The notes beneath the pieces are model-generated. The model saw only the letters and a program-made list of their open reading frames with translations. It was not told where the DNA came from and ran no database searches. From Peribolospora baueri (lineage: Eukaryota > Basidiomycota > Peribolosporomycetes > Peribolosporales > Peribolosporaceae), in the NCBI GenBank assembly GCA_029717555.1, contig JAMDHS010000120.1:1-51616 (forward strand): DNA of 51,616 bases, written 5' to 3'. Shown piece by piece: positions 42,362 to 51,616 of this stretch (positions are counted from its first letter, which is position 1; each line of letters opens with the position of its first letter). The translations under genes were made by a program, and so were the position numbers.

Positions 42362-43468
42362 ATGAAGATCGCCATCTTCTTGCCCTTCCTGGCCACTATC
42401 GGCGCCTCGGCCACGTCCACCTCGATCGACTGGCCTGAGCGGCGCGACGACCGGCGCATGTACAAGCTTGAGGCTCGACAACTCGTCACGGCACAGAACA
42501 ACCAAGTCCTATCGGGCCGTGCCCCTCTCGGCTCAATGGACATTCTGGGCGCGGCCCTCAAGCAAGCCGCGGCGGCAGAGAAAGAAGCGAAGAAGAACGG
42601 AAAGAAGAACGAGGGTCCCAAAGATGAGAAGGGACAGGCTGGCACTCAAGGTGGCGAGGCGAAGGACGTGGGTGATGGCGTTTCGGGAACTAAAGGCCTT
42701 AGCGCTCATACCGGCAACGGAGGCTCTGGCACAGGTGGCCAGGATGGTAATAGCGGGCCGGAGAACACCAACGGAAAGCCCAAGAAGAGTGACGTCAGTG
42801 CGTCGAACAAAGGTGGAGCAGTGCATAAGGCACACGGATACAAGGAGGGACCCAAGGGACATAAGTTTGGCAAGGGTGGCCATCATCGCCACCACGGTAT
42901 CTCCCGCCGCAAGTTCCGCCGTTCTTTCTTTGGCCGCCCTTTCTTGGGTCACGCCCACCGCCATGGCCATCACTACAAGGGGGGAAGAGACGGTGACAGG
43001 GATGATCTTGGGAGTGATATTGATGACGCAGAGAGCCAGCTTCAAGAGACACAGGACACTCTTGGCCAGTTCGGAAGCAAGAAGAACATGAAGAAGCTCT
43101 CGGCACTGATGACCAAGGCGGACGAGTTGAAAGAACAAGCTGCCAAGAAGTCAAGGGAAGATGACAAGAAAGACGACGACGACGGCGCTGCTCATCTTCA
43201 TCGTCCTCGCCATCTGTCGACTTCTCAAATGACAACGCGTTCGGAAGACATTCTCGGAGTTGCTCTGGACCAAGCCGAGGAGGCGCTGGAAAAGGCTGGC
43301 AAGTCGGTGGGCAACGGCAAAAAGGGCGAGCCCGGAGCTGCTGGCAAAGGCGGCAAGGACGGCGTGAACAGCGGCGAACGGGGCGGAAAGGGTGGGGAAG
43401 GCTGGGATGACTGGGATGACCACCACCGTCATTGGCATGGCCACCACCATGACTCTGGTTGGTTCTGA
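42362..43468 (+). CDS. Secreted His/Gly-rich low-complexity protein
   Basis: Single exon, 368 aa. Signal peptide MKIAIFLPFLATIGASATS. No known domain recognised. Visible parts: dibasic sites near the N-terminus (ERRDDRR); a module starting MDILGAALKQAAAAEKEAKK (about 58-80); a collagen-like Gly/Lys-rich stretch; a His-rich basic patch (GGHHRHHGISRRKFRRSFF, about 170-195); a coiled helix (DIDDAESQLQETQDTLGQF); then a second module EDILGVALDQAEEALEKAGK (about 298-317) that repeats the first, followed by another Gly-rich run (GKKGEPGAAGKGGKDG) and a Trp/His end. The internal repeat and general plan recall the gene at 49,735-48,277. The function is unknown; secretion is well supported, a surface or metal-binding role is only a guess from the His content. 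Confidence 0.85.
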   Translation: MKIAIFLPFLATIGASATSTSIDWPERRDDRRMYKLEARQLVTAQNNQVLSGRAPLGSMDILGAALKQAAAAEKEAKKNGKKNEGPKDEKGQAGTQGGEAKDVGDGVSGTKGLSAHTGNGGSGTGGQDGNSGPENTNGKPKKSDVSASNKGGAVHKAHGYKEGPKGHKFGKGGHHRHHGISRRKFRRSFFGRPFLGHAHRHGHHYKGGRDGDRDDLGSDIDDAESQLQETQDTLGQFGSKKNMKKLSALMTKADELKEQAAKKSREDDKKDDDDGAAHLHRPRHLSTSQMTTRSEDILGVALDQAEEALEKAGKSVGNGKKGEPGAAGKGGKDGVNSGERGGKGGEGWDDWDDHHRHWHGHHHDSGWF

Positions 43469-45004: not shown

Positions 45005-45939
45005 GACGAAGGTGGTGGGTGAGGAAAGGACGATCGGCGAGAAGAAAGGTCGGTGAACATCGGCCGGGTCCTCGCACGAGGACCCGATTGGTGCCGTGGG
45101 AGTTTCATCCGCCATAGAATGCGCCTGACTGGGCGACGACTTCGAGCACACCATTCGTCTTGGATGACTTTCATGTTCATCCACCGCGGCCAAGATCACT
45201 GCATTCTGTGCCCTTATTCGACGCATGCGCTGCTTACGCGTCCGTCCGGCCCTCCATTGGCCGTTGATCCTTTTGACAGATACAGCGCCCAGCGAAAAAG
45301 GTGCGACCACGTCTCGCTCCGGTGTGATCCGCGACCTCGGGCGAGAGAGGGATCGGCAAGAGACCTTCTAAAGCTCGCCTCGACGCCTGTCATTACTCAA
45401 AGCTTGCCGCCATGCCAGCTCAACTGACGCGGCCTTTGGACTACTTCCTCAGGCCTCACCTTTCCATTCGTAGCGTCCAAAACTGACTCGCGCATCTGAA
45501 TGTCTTGCATACCGCGGCGTCGCTCTCGACACTGCAGTGGCCGGGGATGACCACCGTCGCTCTTTCTTTTCCAGGTAGCAGCGACCGTCAGCTCACGTGC
45601 AGAAGCTCCCACCGACCCCGCGTACTTGAGCTCGGTCGCTCGGTCAGCCTTACGAAGCGCCGTGCGGCATCTGAGATGCACCAATGCCTTCCGTCGATGG
45701 GGGAGAGTAAGCGAGCGCCAGCGGCTTGACTGTGGAGCAAAAAGGTGTGCTCGTGCTTTGCTCGCTCACTCAGCTGAATCGGTCTCTGAAACATCGACAT
45801 ACCGTCTTAACGTATGCCAACAGAGCAAAGCTATAAAGACGCTCCGCTGCAGACTTGACTTCGCTCGGTAACTCTCAGCTCGAGCTGGTGCGTCCTCTGT
45901 CTCCTCCTGTCCCTGCAGTTGAAATCCCCGTTCGCAATC
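45005..45939. other. Divergent intergenic region before Trp-rich precursor gene
   Basis: About 935 bp between divergent genes. Contains a CACGTG palindrome at about 45,593-45,598 and a TATA box at 45,832. Open frames here show no family signal. Confidence 0.55.
45832..45838 (+). promoter_or_regulatory. TATA box of the Trp-rich precursor gene
   Basis: TATAAAG lies about 100 bp before the start at 45,940, a normal spacing for a TATA-driven, regulated fungal gene. A cag at 45,916-45,918 could end a small 5' UTR intron. Confidence 0.55.
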
Positions 45940-48094
45940 ATGAAGGTTTCCATCACGGTCGCTACCGTCTGTCTGGCTCTCTCCGTGGCCAAGGCGGCGC
46001 CCGTCAATTACGACGAGTCTTCGCCAGAAGCGCTTGATAAGAGGCAGTGGTGGGGCGGCCCTTGGGGCTTTGGCTGGTGGGTACTTCGCTTCTATCTTCA
46101 CCGCCAATCCTGACGTCTCATTCCATTTCATCTTTGCTCTTTTAGGGGAGACTGGTGGAAGGATCACCAGCAGCACCAGCAGCGTGACATCTCCTTTGAG
46201 CGCGACGTCCCGCTTCCGCCTGGCCTCGACAAGAGGCAGTGGGGCTGGGGTGGTTGGGGAGGTTGGGGGGGCTGGGGGGGCTGGAGAGACTGGTTGGTCG
46301 AGATCTCGATCATGAAAGTTTTTGTTCGAAGCTGAAGCTGATGTCAACCTGTGCTCATCTGCGCCTATCTTTCAGGGACTGGTGGAAGGAGCACCAGAAG
46401 GAACTTGAGCAGCGTGACATCTCCGATGACGAAGATGATTTGCAGAAGCGCCTCTGGTGGGGTGGTTGGGGTCCGTGAGTAGCTCTCGCCGTCCTGTTCC
46501 TGCTCCACTTGTCATTAACCTGACTTCAATACATTTATTTTTTTCGTCCAGTGGTTGGGGCTGGGGTGACTGGTGGAAAGAGCACCAGCGTCGTGAAGAT
46601 TTCACGGAGAACGACATTTTGAACGCGCGTGGCTACTCGGATGAAGAGCTCGACCGCCTCTTTGGCGAGCGTGCTGATGAGGGTGAGGATCTTGACAAGA
46701 GGCAGTGGGGCGGGGGCGGCTGGGGCGGCGGGGGCTGGGGGGGCCAGGGCGGCTGGGGCGGCGGGGGCTGGGGGGGCCAGGGCGGCTGGGGCGGCCGGGG
46801 CGGCTGGGGCGGCGGGGGCTGGGGGGGCCGGGGCGGCTGGGGCGGCGGGGGCGGCGGGGGCTGGGGGGGCCGGGGCGGTGGATGGGGTGGTGGTCGGTGA
46901 GTATTTCAAAACGTCCACTATCTCTCCTTTGGTGCATGTTGTCGGGTTGACCGACTGAAATCTATCACTCTGTCTGGCAGCGGTGGTGGGGGGGGAGGTT
47001 GGTCGAAGAAGCGTGACATTTTGAGCGCGCGCGGCCTTTCGGATGAGGAAATTGATAACTTTGCCAAGCGCAGCGATGGCGGCGAGGTGGACCTTGACAA
47101 GCGCCTCTGGTGGTGGGGGTCGCCGTGGGGCTGGTGAGTGGCCTGTCATTCTGTGCTGTGAAGCTTCATTGTCGACGATAATTGAAGCGTGTGGCTATGT
47201 CATTCATCTCCCGCTGCACCAGGAACTGGTGGCAGGATCACAAGCAGCAGAGGGACGAGATCTTTAGGAGGGATGGGACCTTGGACGACGAGAAGTGGTA
47301 AGTCAGCTGTCCACCTAGCTGCACCTCACCCACCGCTCCTCAACTGACTTCTGCCGCCAACATTGCAGGGACGACTTTTGGAAGAAGGACGGTCAGGAGC
47401 TGGTGAAGAATGGCCTACTCGAACCCGATGAGGAGGTTGCCAAACGCCAGTTTGGGTTCGGCAGCGGTGAGTACATGTAGAACTCTGAACCGAAATGTGA
47501 TGTATTACGAACAATCTATTAACTGAGACCATTGATAATTTGCGGGGACAGGCAACGCGCTCGCCTTCCAGGTCAGCCGACGATGAGATCCGTCTATAGT
47601 CTTCGAGCAAAGAACAGCAACTGATGCGAACATATTTGTTTTGCTGCTTTCCAGAGCGCCAACGGAGGCTGGGGAGGCCCTGGTGGCTGGGGGTTCAACT
47701 TCGGGGGATGGAAGCGCCAGGTGCCCGCGATGGTCATCCCACACGAAGAAGAGCGGGGGATGAACGAGGACCGTGGCTCTGATGATGATCCCTGGGAGGA
47801 AAGGGAGAAGAGACAGTTCGGGTTTGGTGGTATCGCCATCGGTGGTAATGGTGGACCCGGAGGCTGGGGAGGACCTGGGTGAGTAGGATTGGGGTAGAGA
47901 AGATGTGATGCGTCGGACGACGTGGACACTGATGTTCGTTCTCGCGACATATTCTGCATCGTACCATCAGAGGGCTCAACATCAACGCTGGCGGGCTGTA
48001 AGTCGCCCTGTACGCCGCTCGGTATCGACCTGAGCTGCCAGCTGAAGCCTGTGACGCTTGTTTTGCTTTTTCCAGAAATGGCTGGTGGTGGTAA
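45940..48094 (+). CDS. Kexin-processed precursor of Trp/Gly-rich secreted peptides
   Basis: Eleven exons: 45940-46076, 46146-46292, 46376-46474, 46552-46896, 46981-47133, 47223-47297, 47369-47466, 47552-47571, 47655-47878, 47971-47997, 48076-48094, giving 447 aa. Signal peptide MKVSITVATVCLALSVAKA. Then a series of Lys-Arg sites, mostly after acidic spacers (ALDKR, GLDKR, LQKR, DLDKR, VDLDKR, VAKR, REKR), followed by Gln or Leu and Trp/Gly- or Phe/Gly-rich stretches: QWWGGPWGFGW, QWGWGGWGGW, LWWGGWGPGWGWGDWW, QWGGGGWGGG, LWWWGSPWGWNWW, QFGFGSGNAL, QFGFGGIAIGG. A core DWWKxHQ...RDI recurs four times. Introns 1-6 are all phase 2, and four of them split a Trp codon (TG|G), so exons 2-6 are symmetric modules. 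The layout matches fungal kexin-processed repeat precursors; products and role are unknown. Confidence 0.85.
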
Positions 48095-48276: not shown

Positions 48277-49735
48277 TCAGATCGTCGAACGCATACGTCC
48301 GTTTGCGGAGAGCCTTCTCACTTTACCTTTGTCTTTGTCGACGCTTTCTGTTTGACCGACGTCAGGTGTAGGATCCAAGTCGACGCTTTCCGTCTGACCG
48401 ACGTCAGGTGTAGGATCCAAGTCGACGCTTTCCGTCTGACCGACGTCAGGTGTAGGATCCAAGTCGACGCTTTCCGTCTGACCGACGTCAGGCGTAGGAT
48501 CCAAGTCCGGCTCGCTCAACGCCGTCGTCGCACCGCCTTGGTTGAGATTCGTGCTGCCGTACCCTCCTCGTCCGCCGGAGCCTCCGTTCCCTCCGACTGC
48601 CGCCGCGGCGGCGGATCCCTGTCCCTGTCGCCCAGGTGCACTGCTCGTACCGCCCAAGTTGAGGGTACCGCCAGAACCCGAAGCGGTGTTATGGCCTAGT
48701 CCACCACCTCCGCCCGCGCCCCCGCTGTGCCAGGATGACACGGCGACGAAAAGGTCAGCCGACTGCTGTGGCCGTCGAGAGAAGGCCTCTGAACCCGGTA
48801 AAAAGGAGACGAGGGGGTATCAGGTCTCACCCTGCTGCTTGGTAGCCGTGCGCATTCCCGGAATCGTTTCCGCGATCGATCCCGTTGCCCTATTCGATCG
48901 TCGCGCCCAAAACAAAACGTTGAAGGTCACTTCAGCTGGGATCCGGATTCCCCAAAGCGAACAGCATACACCCAGCTTTAACGCCTTTTCCGAAAGCGAC
49001 GCAAAAGGGGCTCACATCGTTTATTGCCTGCTGGTTTCCGCTCCCTCCCAGGTCTCCTTGGTGAACCCGGTGCCGATGCCCGCCGCCACTGCCTTGGCGG
49101 CCTCGGCTCTTCCCGGACGAGTCGTGGAAGCCGAGCACGCCGAGCACGCCTTCGCTGGACAGGTCTCGCTTCGGGAGGTGCTTAAGCGGGTGGCTGAGTA
49201 CGTCGTCCAGCGAATGCGGCAAGACGGGAATGGACGGTAAAACAGGTTTGGGTCGCCGGTGAGTGTGGTGAGACCCGGGACGGGCAGCATGTCCACGATG
49301 GGATGCGAGGGCTTCGTGGTTTGAAACGGGCTGACGAATGCTAGGATAGTTTTCCGCTTTGGAGACAGGCGCCTTGGTATTATCCCCCGCTTGCGGCTTG
49401 CCGGCTTTGGCAACGCTCTCGGCGTTGTGGACGTTGGTACTGCTCACGCCAGGAGCGCCCGCCCTACCTGGCTGTCCGTCCAGACCAGACGGGAGCAGAG
49501 TGAGGTCTTGCCCGTTTTCGTACGACGTCAACTTGGTCCAAGCATCGTCGAGGGAGCTTTGAGCGTCTGCGATGTCGTCGGTGTAGGCCCGAGCTCGTAC
49601 GCTGTCGAATGAAGGTCTTGGCACGTTCTCGCGACGTTCGAGCGGATGGAGAGGGCAGGAAGCGCAAGCGAAAGCGGTGTGAAGGGCGAGAAGAGTGGAG
49701 ACTGAGAGCAGAGGAATCAACGCAAGCATCTTCAT
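48277..49735 (-). CDS. Secreted low-complexity protein with 14-residue tandem repeats
   Basis: Two exons from the right: 49735-49016 and 48762-48277, giving 401 aa. Signal peptide MKMLALIPLLSVSTLLALHT then AFA. No known domain. Features: ERR and PKR dibasic sites; a helix TDDIADAQSSLDDAWTKLTS; a collagen-like run (GLDGQPGRAGAPG); a His-rich basic patch (SHHTHRRPKP); after KR, DLSSEGVLGVLGFHDSSG; a Gly/Ser-rich block; then four copies of DLDPTPDVGQTESV (48,337-48,504) and a basic tail. The plan - signal, helix, GXX run, HHxH patch, DILG/VLG module, Gly-rich tail - parallels the gene at 42,362, so I suspect diverged paralogs. The acceptor at 48,763-48,765 is the one that keeps frame. Function unknown. 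Confidence 0.8.
48337..48504. repeat. Four perfect-to-near-perfect 42-bp tandem repeats
   Basis: Units start at 48,337, 48,379, 48,421 and 48,463 and encode the 14-residue repeat on the minus strand. The outer units differ slightly from the middle two, which are identical. Confidence 0.97.
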
Positions 49736-50323: not shown

Positions 50324-51616
50324 TCACCAGCCGCCTTGCGCAACAGCGCCGCCGGCAGGAGAGAGGATAGGGACGTTAGCGCCGAGGCCAATCAGGTCAC
50401 CGCTGGCGCCGGCAGAGTTGGAGCCGCCGATGGCGGCGGCATTGCCGTTGTTGTGGTCGTCCTCGTGGTACCAGCGCTTGTACCCACGGAAAGGGAAACC
50501 GGCACCGTAGTTGCCGGGGGCGCCGTAAGCGCTAGCGCCACCGGCGGGCGAGGCGACAGGGACGTTGGCGGCAATGCCGATCAGGTCGTTGTTGGCCTGG
50601 GCAGAGTTGCAGCCACCCTTAGCGGCCGCGTTGCCATTGTCGTGGTTGTCGCGCTTCCGGCCACCCTGACCGACGGCGCCACCGGCGGGCGAGGCGATAG
50701 GGGCGTTGGCGGCAATGCCGATCAGGTCGTTGTTGGCCTGGGCAGAGTTGCAACCACCCACAGCGGCCGCGTTGCCGTCGTGGTGGCCGTCGTGGTGGTC
50801 GTCGTCCCAGCGCTTCCAGCCACCGTGAGCGACAGCGTTACCGGCGGGGGAGAGGATAGGGACGTTAGCGGCGAGGCCGATCAGGTCGCCGTTGGCGCTG
50901 GCAGAGTTGGAACCGCCAATAGCGGCGGCGTTGCCGTTGTCGTAGCCGTGGTCGTGGTCCCAGCGCTTCTTGAGGATGCCGCCGCCGTTGGCGTCAGCGC
51001 CGCCGGCAGGCGAGAGGATAGGAACGTTGAGTCCGAGGCCGACCAGGTCCCCATTGGCGCCCGCAGAGTTGGAGCCGCCGACAGCGCCGGCGTTACCGAC
51101 GCCGAGACCACCCCAGCGCTTCCAGCCTCCCTGAGCGCTAGCGCCACCCGCGGGCGAGGCGACAGGGACGTTGGCGGCAACACCGATCAAGTCGTTGTTC
51201 GCCTCGGCAGAGTTGGAGCCGCCAATCGCAGCGGCGTTGCCGTTGTTGTGGCCCTGGTAGTAGTCGTGATCATGGTGGTACCAGCGCTTCTTGAGGCCGC
51301 CGCCGTTGGCGACAGCGCTGCCGGCGGGGGAGAGGACGGGGACGTTGGCGGCAACGCCGATCAAGTCGCCGTTGGCCTGGGCAGAGTTGGAACCGCCAAT
51401 AGCGGCAGCGTTGCCGTTGTTGTGGCCCTGGTCGTAGTCGTGATCGTAGTGGTACCAGCGCTTCTTGAGGCCGCCGCCGTTGGCGACAGCGCTGCCGGCG
51501 GGGGAGAGGACGGGGACGTTGGCGGCAACGCCGATCAAGTCGCCGTTGGCCTGGGCAGAGTTGGAACCGCCAATAGCGGCAGCGTTGCCGTTGTTGTGGC
51601 CCTGGTCGTAGTCGTG
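50324..51616 (-). CDS. Kexin-processed tandem-repeat secreted precursor, 5'-partial
   Basis: Open from the window edge at 51,616 to a TGA at 50,324; 430 codons are visible, with no intron. It is an array of eight units (the first cut by the edge) of about 50-60 residues, separated by seven Lys-Arg sites (GLKKR, GWKR, ILKKR, GRKR, GYKR). Six of seven sites are followed by Trp. Each unit has a His/Asp-rich head (WYHHDHD type), then NGNAAAIGGSNSAxAN, then DLIGxAANVPVxSPAG, and a Gly-rich tail. Two units have Cys in place of Ser (GGCNSAQAN). Kexin should release the units as separate hydrophobic peptides after secretion, like Ustilago Rep1-type repellents in principle; no sequence homology is claimed. 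The signal peptide should lie beyond the window. Confidence 0.85.
   Translation of the reverse strand, partial: HDYDQGHNNGNAAAIGGSNSAQANGDLIGVAANVPVLSPAGSAVANGGGLKKRWYHYDHDYDQGHNNGNAAAIGGSNSAQANGDLIGVAANVPVLSPAGSAVANGGGLKKRWYHHDHDYYQGHNNGNAAAIGGSNSAEANNDLIGVAANVPVASPAGGASAQGGWKRWGGLGVGNAGAVGGSNSAGANGDLVGLGLNVPILSPAGGADANGGGILKKRWDHDHGYDNGNAAAIGGSNSASANGDLIGLAANVPILSPAGNAVAHGGWKRWDDDHHDGHHDGNAAAVGGCNSAQANNDLIGIAANAPIASPAGGAVGQGGRKRDNHDNGNAAAKGGCNSAQANNDLIGIAANVPVASPAGGASAYGAPGNYGAGFPFRGYKRWYHEDDHNNGNAAAIGGSNSAGASGDLIGLGANVPILSPAGGAVAQGGW
51251..51616. repeat. 174-bp tandem repeat units in the precursor gene
   Basis: Period 174 bp (58 codons): landmark GCCCTGGT occurs at 51,251, 51,425 and 51,599. 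Units 51,251-51,424 and 51,425-51,598 are nearly identical, pointing to recent duplication; the array continues past the edge. Confidence 0.93.

Follow-up and report, generated by a model that had tools for sequence, protein, structure and literature searches.

A tryptophan- and glycine-rich predicted kexin precursor with symmetric exons in Peribolospora baueri

A gene for a tryptophan- and glycine-rich precursor was identified on contig JAMDHS010000120.1 of Peribolospora baueri (GCA_029717555.1), within a 51,616-nt stretch (hereinafter referred to as the window; positions 1 to 51,616 of the forward strand). So far as can be checked from its sequence, assignment of the gene to the class of KEX2-processed repeat proteins (KEPs) by published criteria is well supported. 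As worded in passages of Le Marquer 2019 (PMC6339444), a KEP gives at least four fragments after KR/RR cleavage; cutting the precursor after Lys-Arg alone gives 11 fragments, including the first and the last. Passages of Umemura 2020 (PMC7329392) call for at least three similar repeats between dibasic sites, none longer than 100 aa, and four such units (p1, p2, p3, and p5) were found, as judged by shuffles and not by the authors' own pipelines. Support is good both for the gene and for the type of precursor, and we infer a surface role for the products: by analogy, there is about an even chance that the peptides released by kexin are for the most part anionic Trp/Gly amphiphiles that act at the surface of cells or between air and water, as the Rep1 peptides do.

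Gene model and predicted peptide segments

The gene was rebuilt from the sequence at 45940-48094 on the forward strand. It comprises 11 exons and 10 introns (69-92 nt, all GT-AG), and encodes a protein of 447 aa. Introns 1 to 10 are in phases 2, 2, 2, 2, 2, 2, 1, 0, 2, and 2, and exons 2 to 6 measure 147, 99, 345, 153, and 75 nt, all multiples of three. Introns 1, 2, 5, and 6 split a Trp codon as TG/G. The 11 exons, the phase 2 of introns 1-6 with exons 2-6 as multiples of three, and the four split Trp codons had all been proposed in the initial annotation, and each was recovered in the rebuilt gene. Introns 1, 4, and 10 have lengths divisible by three, and retention of any of them would break the protein because each contains an in-frame stop.

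Trp accounts for 51 of the 447 residues (11.4%) and Gly for 115 (25.7%), and a single Cys is present. Among the 99 stop-to-stop frames in the window that span 150 codons or more, median Trp content was 1.2%; the most Trp-rich of them (10.5%) corresponds to one of the exons described here, and the runner-up reached 4.7%. A Pfam search of the spliced protein returned no family. At the N-terminus, MKVSITVATVCLALSVAKA/AP shows, as judged by eye, the n-, h-, and c-regions typical of a signal peptide. The description as a secreted-looking, Trp/Gly-rich kexin precursor was supported by this start, by the Lys-Arg-bounded segments, and by a kexin gene encoded elsewhere in the genome, where Peptidase_S8 and P_proprotein domains were found on adjoining frames (C169, L025). 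A TATAAA motif at 45832..45837 (+), about 100 bp 5' of the ATG, is a possible core promoter by consensus match only; a promoter scan found nothing, its consensus being bacterial and the host a fungus. Upstream of the gene, a frame at 42362-43465 (+) encodes a secreted-looking Lys/Gly/His-rich protein (MKIAIFLPFLATIGASA...) with no Pfam family.

All exons lie on the forward strand. Exon 1 (46076 being its last position, from 45940) encodes the signal-peptide-like start, a pro-segment up to LDKR, and the head QWWGGPWGFG(W). The following five exons are all of the phase 2-2 type. Exon 2 (46146..46292) contains the tail (W)GDWWKDHQQHQQRDI, LDKR, and the head QWGWGGWGGWGGWGGW; exon 3 (46376..46474) contains the acidic tail DWWKEHQ...RDI, LQKR, and the head LWWGGWG(P). 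Exon 4 (46552..46896) encodes the acidic tail GWGWGDWWKEHQ...SDEELDRLF, LDKR, and then a Gly/Trp minisatellite. Exon 5 (46981..47133) encodes SKKRDILSARGLSDEEIDNFAKR, LDKR, and the head LWWWGSPWG(W), and exon 6 (47223..47297) encodes (W)NWWQDHKQQRDEIFRRDGTLDDEK without Lys-Arg. Exon 7 (47369..47466) begins with (W)DDFWKKDGQEL...DEEVAKR and runs into the onset of a QFGFGSG segment. The C-terminus is formed by exon 8 (47552..47571; 20 nt, GNALAFQ), exon 9 (47655..47878; SANGGWGGPGGWGFNFGGWKR, the acidic segment QVPAM...EKR, and QFGFGGIAIGGNGGPGG), exon 10 (47971..47997; GGLNINAGG), and exon 11 (48076..48094; LNGWWW and the stop). Tandem arrays were located within the gene at 46243-46293 and 46706-46878.

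Segments were defined by cutting the precursor after Lys-Arg. After the pro-segment, p1, p2, p3, and p4 measure 41, 44, 58, and 76 aa, followed by short acidic pieces of 19 and 11 aa, p5 (61 aa), and the C-terminal segments p6 (34 aa), p7 (an acidic piece of 32 aa), and p8 (36 aa). The segments QWWGGPWGFGW, LWWGGWGPGWGW, and LWWWGSPWGWNWW, quoted in the initial annotation, are each present after Lys-Arg. Extra KK and RR sites in some units could cut these further. The similarities p1-p2, p1-p3, p1-p5, p2-p3, and p3-p5 were reached by none of 1,000 shuffles and p2-p5 by nine; p6-p8 and p1-p6 were likewise reached by none of 1,000. The minisatellite segment p4 was indistinguishable from composition, since its scores with the seven other units were reached by 59 to 999 of 1,000 shuffles.

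Trp is the residue with the strongest preference for interfaces. With head and tail divided by our own rule and interface preference scored on a scale of our own choosing, p1, p2, p3, and p5 each consist of a neutral head and an acidic tail, with head charges of 0, +1, 0, and 0 and tail charges, after trimming, of -3, -8, -10, and -7. The head of p4 is cationic (+4), p6 and p8 carry no acidic tail, and p7 is acidic without a head; thus, not all products fit one amphiphile design.

Exon homology and growth of the gene

The proposal that peptide units and exons coincide did not hold. Introns 1, 2, 3, and 5 sit inside a predicted mature peptide, near the joint of the Trp/Gly head and the acidic DWWK...RDI tail, and Lys-Arg is internal to exons 2, 3, 4, 5, and 7. 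Intron 4 is located within a Gly run, and intron 6 lies at a tail-to-tail joint, exon 6 ending in DEKW. Relative to the peptide unit, the exon is circularly permuted. With introns inside the mature peptide and Lys-Arg inside the exons, the copied unit would consist of a tail, a kexin site, and the next head.

The DWWKxHQ...RDI core, reported to return in exons 2, 3, 4, and 6, was found in its strict form only in exons 2 and 3; exon 4 deviates (DWWKEHQ with NDI), as does exon 6 (NWWQDHK and RDEI, in the exon that has no Lys-Arg). Exon 5 has lost DWWK and kept RDIL.ARG.SDEE. Similarity among the spacers was assessed with hand-cut protein segments in 21 pairs, exon 9 serving as a control, with 2,000 shuffles for every pair. 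The scores of E2-E3, E2-E4, E2-E6, E3-E4, and E4-E5 were reached by none of the shuffles, those of E3-E7, E4-E6, E3-E5, E3-E6, and E2-E7 by 1, 5, 6, 46, and 80, respectively, and those of all remaining pairs by at least 118, including E2-E5 (480) and E5-E6 (1,005), both at chance level, as are most pairs with E7. When Trp was masked, E2-E3 and E4-E5 were still reached by none, E2-E6 by 6, and E2-E4 by 37; among the weaker pairs, E3-E7 was reached by 53, E3-E5 by 63, E3-E4 by 89, and E3-E6 by 522. Part of the signal therefore rests on the DWW motif. At the DNA level, E2-E3, E2-E4, E2-E5, E2-E6, E3-E4, and E4-E5 were reached by none of 1,000 shuffles, E3-E6 by 1, E3-E5 by 5, E4-E6 by 89, and E5-E6 by 218. 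For exon 7, all five DNA pairs were reached by at least 205 of 1,000 shuffles, against 1 of 2,000 for E3-E7 in the protein test. DNA and protein tests agree in the main. On these similarities, exons 2 to 6 can be regarded as connected through homologous pairs, some pairs being dissimilar.

Growth by exon duplication, as suggested in the initial annotation, is favoured by this homology and by the phase 2 symmetry; against it, introns 1-6 bear no clear mutual resemblance. No convincing shared sequence was detected among these six introns, the best of the 15 pairs (introns 2 and 5) being reached by 11 of 500 shuffles. The case for exon duplication thus draws on exon homology and phase alone, and any such duplications would be old. 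A clearer instance was found in a relative on another contig (C100b; contig C100, L023). Its three exons measure 264, 393, and 576 nt, and both of its introns are in phase 0 and interrupt the unit at the same position. These two introns flank the 393-nt exon and agree in 93 of the 120 columns of their alignment, a score reached by none of 1,000 shuffles; here, the intron was copied along with the repeat unit. The Trp-rich gene appears to have grown through duplication of exons, most of which hold a single kexin site flanked on both sides by part of a peptide, and it suggests a growth route for KEP precursors, namely by symmetric exons with an internal kexin site.

Since exons 2-6 are all of phase 2-2, skipping any set of them keeps the frame: all 32 combinations ran to the same stop, with products of 174-447 residues. 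Because introns 1, 2, 3, and 5 lie near the head/tail joint, skipping would pair heads with different tails. The frame thus permits the gene to act as a combinatorial peptide factory in which exon skipping produces such pairings, a reading that we consider improbable. If it were true, splicing within one cell, and exon gain and loss over time, could vary the amphiphiles made.

The C-terminal tail, its family, and the neighbouring genes

By profile similarity, the C-terminal exons can be recognized as a unit, now diverged, of a KEP family that is rich in Gly and Asn and has other members in this genome. The family profile was built from nine units of three other genes, two on contig C100 and one on C43, and seven of the nine units end in Lys-Arg. 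The family unit, GSGNQQSNFSGNGNDKGN.SGNA.A.Q.ANGG...GxAIGGNGG...N.NKGGLN, was matched by the tail (exons 7-11) in two pieces, GFGSGNALAFQSANGGWGGPGGWGFN and GIAIGGNGGPGGWGGPGGLNINAGGLN, whereas exons 1-6 gave no match beyond composition. Exon 8 contributes to this match together with exon 9, and the acidic segment of exon 9 lies inside the family unit. The tail scored 49.8 bits, the tail without its inner acidic segment 41.1 bits, and the whole protein 33.9 bits, with large composition-bias terms for the tail (15.5-25.9 bits); the best of 1,000 shuffles of the shortened tail scored 9.5 bits. It was the second half of the tail that had first led to the three profile genes (E 0.23-4.1), so the first piece, which alone scored 25.2 bits, is independent support. 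The first part of the family unit (GSGNQQSN.SGNGNDKGN) is missing from the tail, and the pattern GSGNA.A.Q.ANGG...AIGGNGG..GG..GG.N.N.GGLN was matched by the tail only.

Using a single protein unit from C100b as a query, the family was detected in at least 12 separate places on ten contigs with E below 1e-4, its own locus counted and three of the places being on C100; 29 matches were listed at E up to 10. Family members (L021, L022, and L023, in addition to those on the ten contigs) share GSGNQQSN.SGNGNDKGN.SGNA.A.Q.ANGG, and the N.A..Q pattern is one that we take to recall curlin repeats. The modelled introns of the family members C100a (three) and C100b (two) are in phase 0, in contrast to the phase 2 of introns 1-6 of the Trp-rich gene.

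No paralogue of the Trp-rich front (exons 1-6) was found in the genome beyond the gene itself, and a genome search with exons 5-11 gave only weak outside matches, to the tail. The first 178 residues had no relative among bacterial and archaeal genomes, viral contigs, solved structures, and NCBIfam, collections that are non-fungal except for some fungal proteins among the structures, so that this result says little; two pattern searches with these residues gave 216 and 4 stretches, of which none was confirmed. The pattern Lys-Arg-Gln-Trp-Trp gave five matches in the genome against eight for its reverse, which is noise apart from the gene itself.

Two more predicted, secreted-looking repeat genes lie directly downstream of the Trp-rich gene, both on the reverse strand. 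The first (~48280..49735), convergent with it, has a signal-peptide-like start, GSGNQQ, and GNGIDRGNDSGNAHGYQAAG and AVGGNGGSGGRGGYGSTNLNQGG in separate frames, and contains a split unit of the Gly/Asn-rich family, its two parts scoring 20.2 and 16.9 bits against the profile. A 42-bp tandem array at 48337-48507 (4.1 copies, 97% matches) is in frame in its 48280-48819 frame. The second (50327..51616) is a KEP with near-identical repeated GNAAAIGGSNSAQANGDLIGVAANVPVLSPAGG units, split by KKRW/KRW, and runs off the end of the contig; it had no Pfam match above the cut-off and no match in PHROGs. By eye, we take it to recall bacterial chaplins. The assembly seems to have broken inside its GNAAAIGGSNSAQANGDLIGVAANVPVLSPAGG array, and its missing start is probably on another contig (G000:C75:1-505), a join suggested by the repeats.

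The Pfam families identified in the window belong to ordinary genes such as PGAP1, OPA3, SRR1, and SAP, together with copia-type gag and pol matches; this partial scan covered 68 hand-picked frames, namely 63 of the 99 with at least 150 codons and five shorter ones, and revealed no enzyme of the kind that usually modifies fungal peptides. Elsewhere in the genome, hydrophobins gave seven matches in five places. One hydrophobin domain (G000:C99:780-1007, L040) has long repeats before it in one frame, nearly identical and containing RRQ and GRQL, an arrangement that resembles Hum3-type repeat-hydrophobin fusions. For 5.8S rRNA, a single match was listed (G000:C106:65728-65878, L039; 39 of 644 candidates in the genome scored), which we take to be unusually divergent from the common fungal sequence.

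Proposed function and comparison with known systems

In the proposed route, the signal peptide would be removed, kexin would cut after Lys-Arg, and a carboxypeptidase would trim the basic ends. The main products would be about 32-76 aa long and would include amphiphiles whose neutral Trp/Gly head favours interfaces; in p1, p2, p3, and p5, an acidic tail comes after this head. An N-terminal Gln, present on p1, p2, p4, p6, p7, and p8, may cyclise after release; passages of PMC9769878 describe pyro-Gln on KEP peptides of a basidiomycete mushroom, and a search of the genome for a glutaminyl cyclase gave eight M28-family matches, none resolved to a cyclase. The amphiphiles may then cover the cell wall or the boundary between air and water, where they would self-assemble like the Rep1 repellents. 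The presence of hydrophobins in the genome counts against this proposal, as it leaves no gap for which a repellent would be required, and so does the departure of p4, p6, p7, and p8 from the head-and-tail plan. If the peptides are surface-active, they would constitute a Trp/Gly amphiphile class that is simple to test.

An unlikely alternative is that the precursor stays uncut as a Gly/Trp-rich wall or matrix protein, its Lys-Arg sites being incidental. Gly-rich wall proteins are widespread, exon 6 has no Lys-Arg, and the additional KK/RR in some units would fit; against this, Lys-Arg stands just before each Trp/Gly or Phe/Gly segment, which begins with Gln or Leu, most of the nine profiled units of the related family also end in Lys-Arg, and the genome encodes a kexin.

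It is rather unlikely that kexin releases membrane-active antimicrobial Trp/Gly peptides. The high Trp density resembles that of Trp-rich antimicrobial peptides by composition, and p4 has its cationic Gly/Trp head, but classical Trp-rich antimicrobial peptides are cationic, and p1, p2, p3, and p5 are net negative, with acidic tails throughout. Among the roles listed in the initial annotation, these charges favour the surface-active one over cationic membrane killing.

It is quite improbable that the Trp richness stems mainly from in-frame reading of G-rich minisatellites, with TGG in GGCTGGGGC arrays: such arrays do occur in exons 2 and 4, but Trp is found outside them too, in the DWWK motifs, QWWGGPWGFGW, and LWWWGSPWGWNWW, and the exon homology lies in the spacers. 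Still less probable is that the peptides are intercellular signals, pheromone- or hormone-like. Repeat-containing kexin precursors do include pheromones, according to passages of PMC6339444, but the main units here differ strongly from each other over 32-76 aa, and low-complexity Gly/Trp heads would be poor receptor ligands. The least probable reading takes the segments as core peptides of a dikaritin-like modified ribosomal peptide with cross-linked Trp side chains, for which the kexin-bounded repeats with N-terminal Gln, and the DUF3328 (UstYa) gene that accompanies 22% of KEP genes in passages of PMC7329392, would speak, but the units are uneven and long, the Pfam scan of 68 frames in the window yielded neither UstYa nor P450 nor methyltransferase (the gene lies about 3.5 kb from the contig end), and a UstYa search of the genome gave no match, with 14 control genomes equally silent, so that absence is not implied.

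The interfacial role proposed above can be set beside known systems. The Trp-rich gene and dikaritin precursors of the ustiloxin type have in common kexin-bounded repeats in a secretory precursor; they differ in the long, diverse, Trp-rich units of the former, for which no UstYa gene was seen, with weak power. A surface role is proposed in common with hydrophobins; identity as a hydrophobin was rejected, as the protein has one Cys in place of the eight-Cys pattern and no Pfam match.

KEPs occur widely across fungi, with functions that are for the most part unknown, according to passages of PMC7329392 and PMC9769878. The Trp-rich gene shares with them a signal-peptide-like start, dibasic-bounded repeats, at least three similar units, and a kexin in the genome, and is unlike them in its uneven units, its extreme Trp/Gly content, and the four phase 2 introns that split peptide units. 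The word "exon" is absent from the main texts of PMC7329392, PMC6339444, and PMC9769878; "tryptophan" is absent from that of PMC7329392, occurs in that of PMC6339444 only in the abbreviation list, and occurs once in that of PMC9769878, for the C-terminal Trp of other KEPs. No report of Trp-rich kexin precursors, or of exon duplication in them, was found in this incomplete literature coverage, which gives weak evidence of novelty. The gene departs from known KEPs in Trp/Gly content, unit heterogeneity, and symmetric exon design, the last being the feature for which no earlier report was found.

A further likeness, by description, is to the Rep1 repellent of Ustilago maydis and to Hum3. Passages of PMC4617103 describe Rep1 as one precursor whose Kex2 sites yield ten amphipathic peptides of 35-53 aa and one of 228, the peptides forming surface-active fibrils, and give repeat lengths of 34-55 aa for Rep1 and 31-36 aa for Hum3. 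The Trp-rich gene has in common with Rep1 and Hum3 a single precursor, Kex2 sites, and imperfect, putatively amphipathic repeats of similar length, two of the four head-and-tail units (p3 and p5) being longer than the Rep1 repeats and p4, p6, p7, and p8 being off-plan. Its own feature relative to Rep1 is the combination of Trp/Gly heads with acidic tails.
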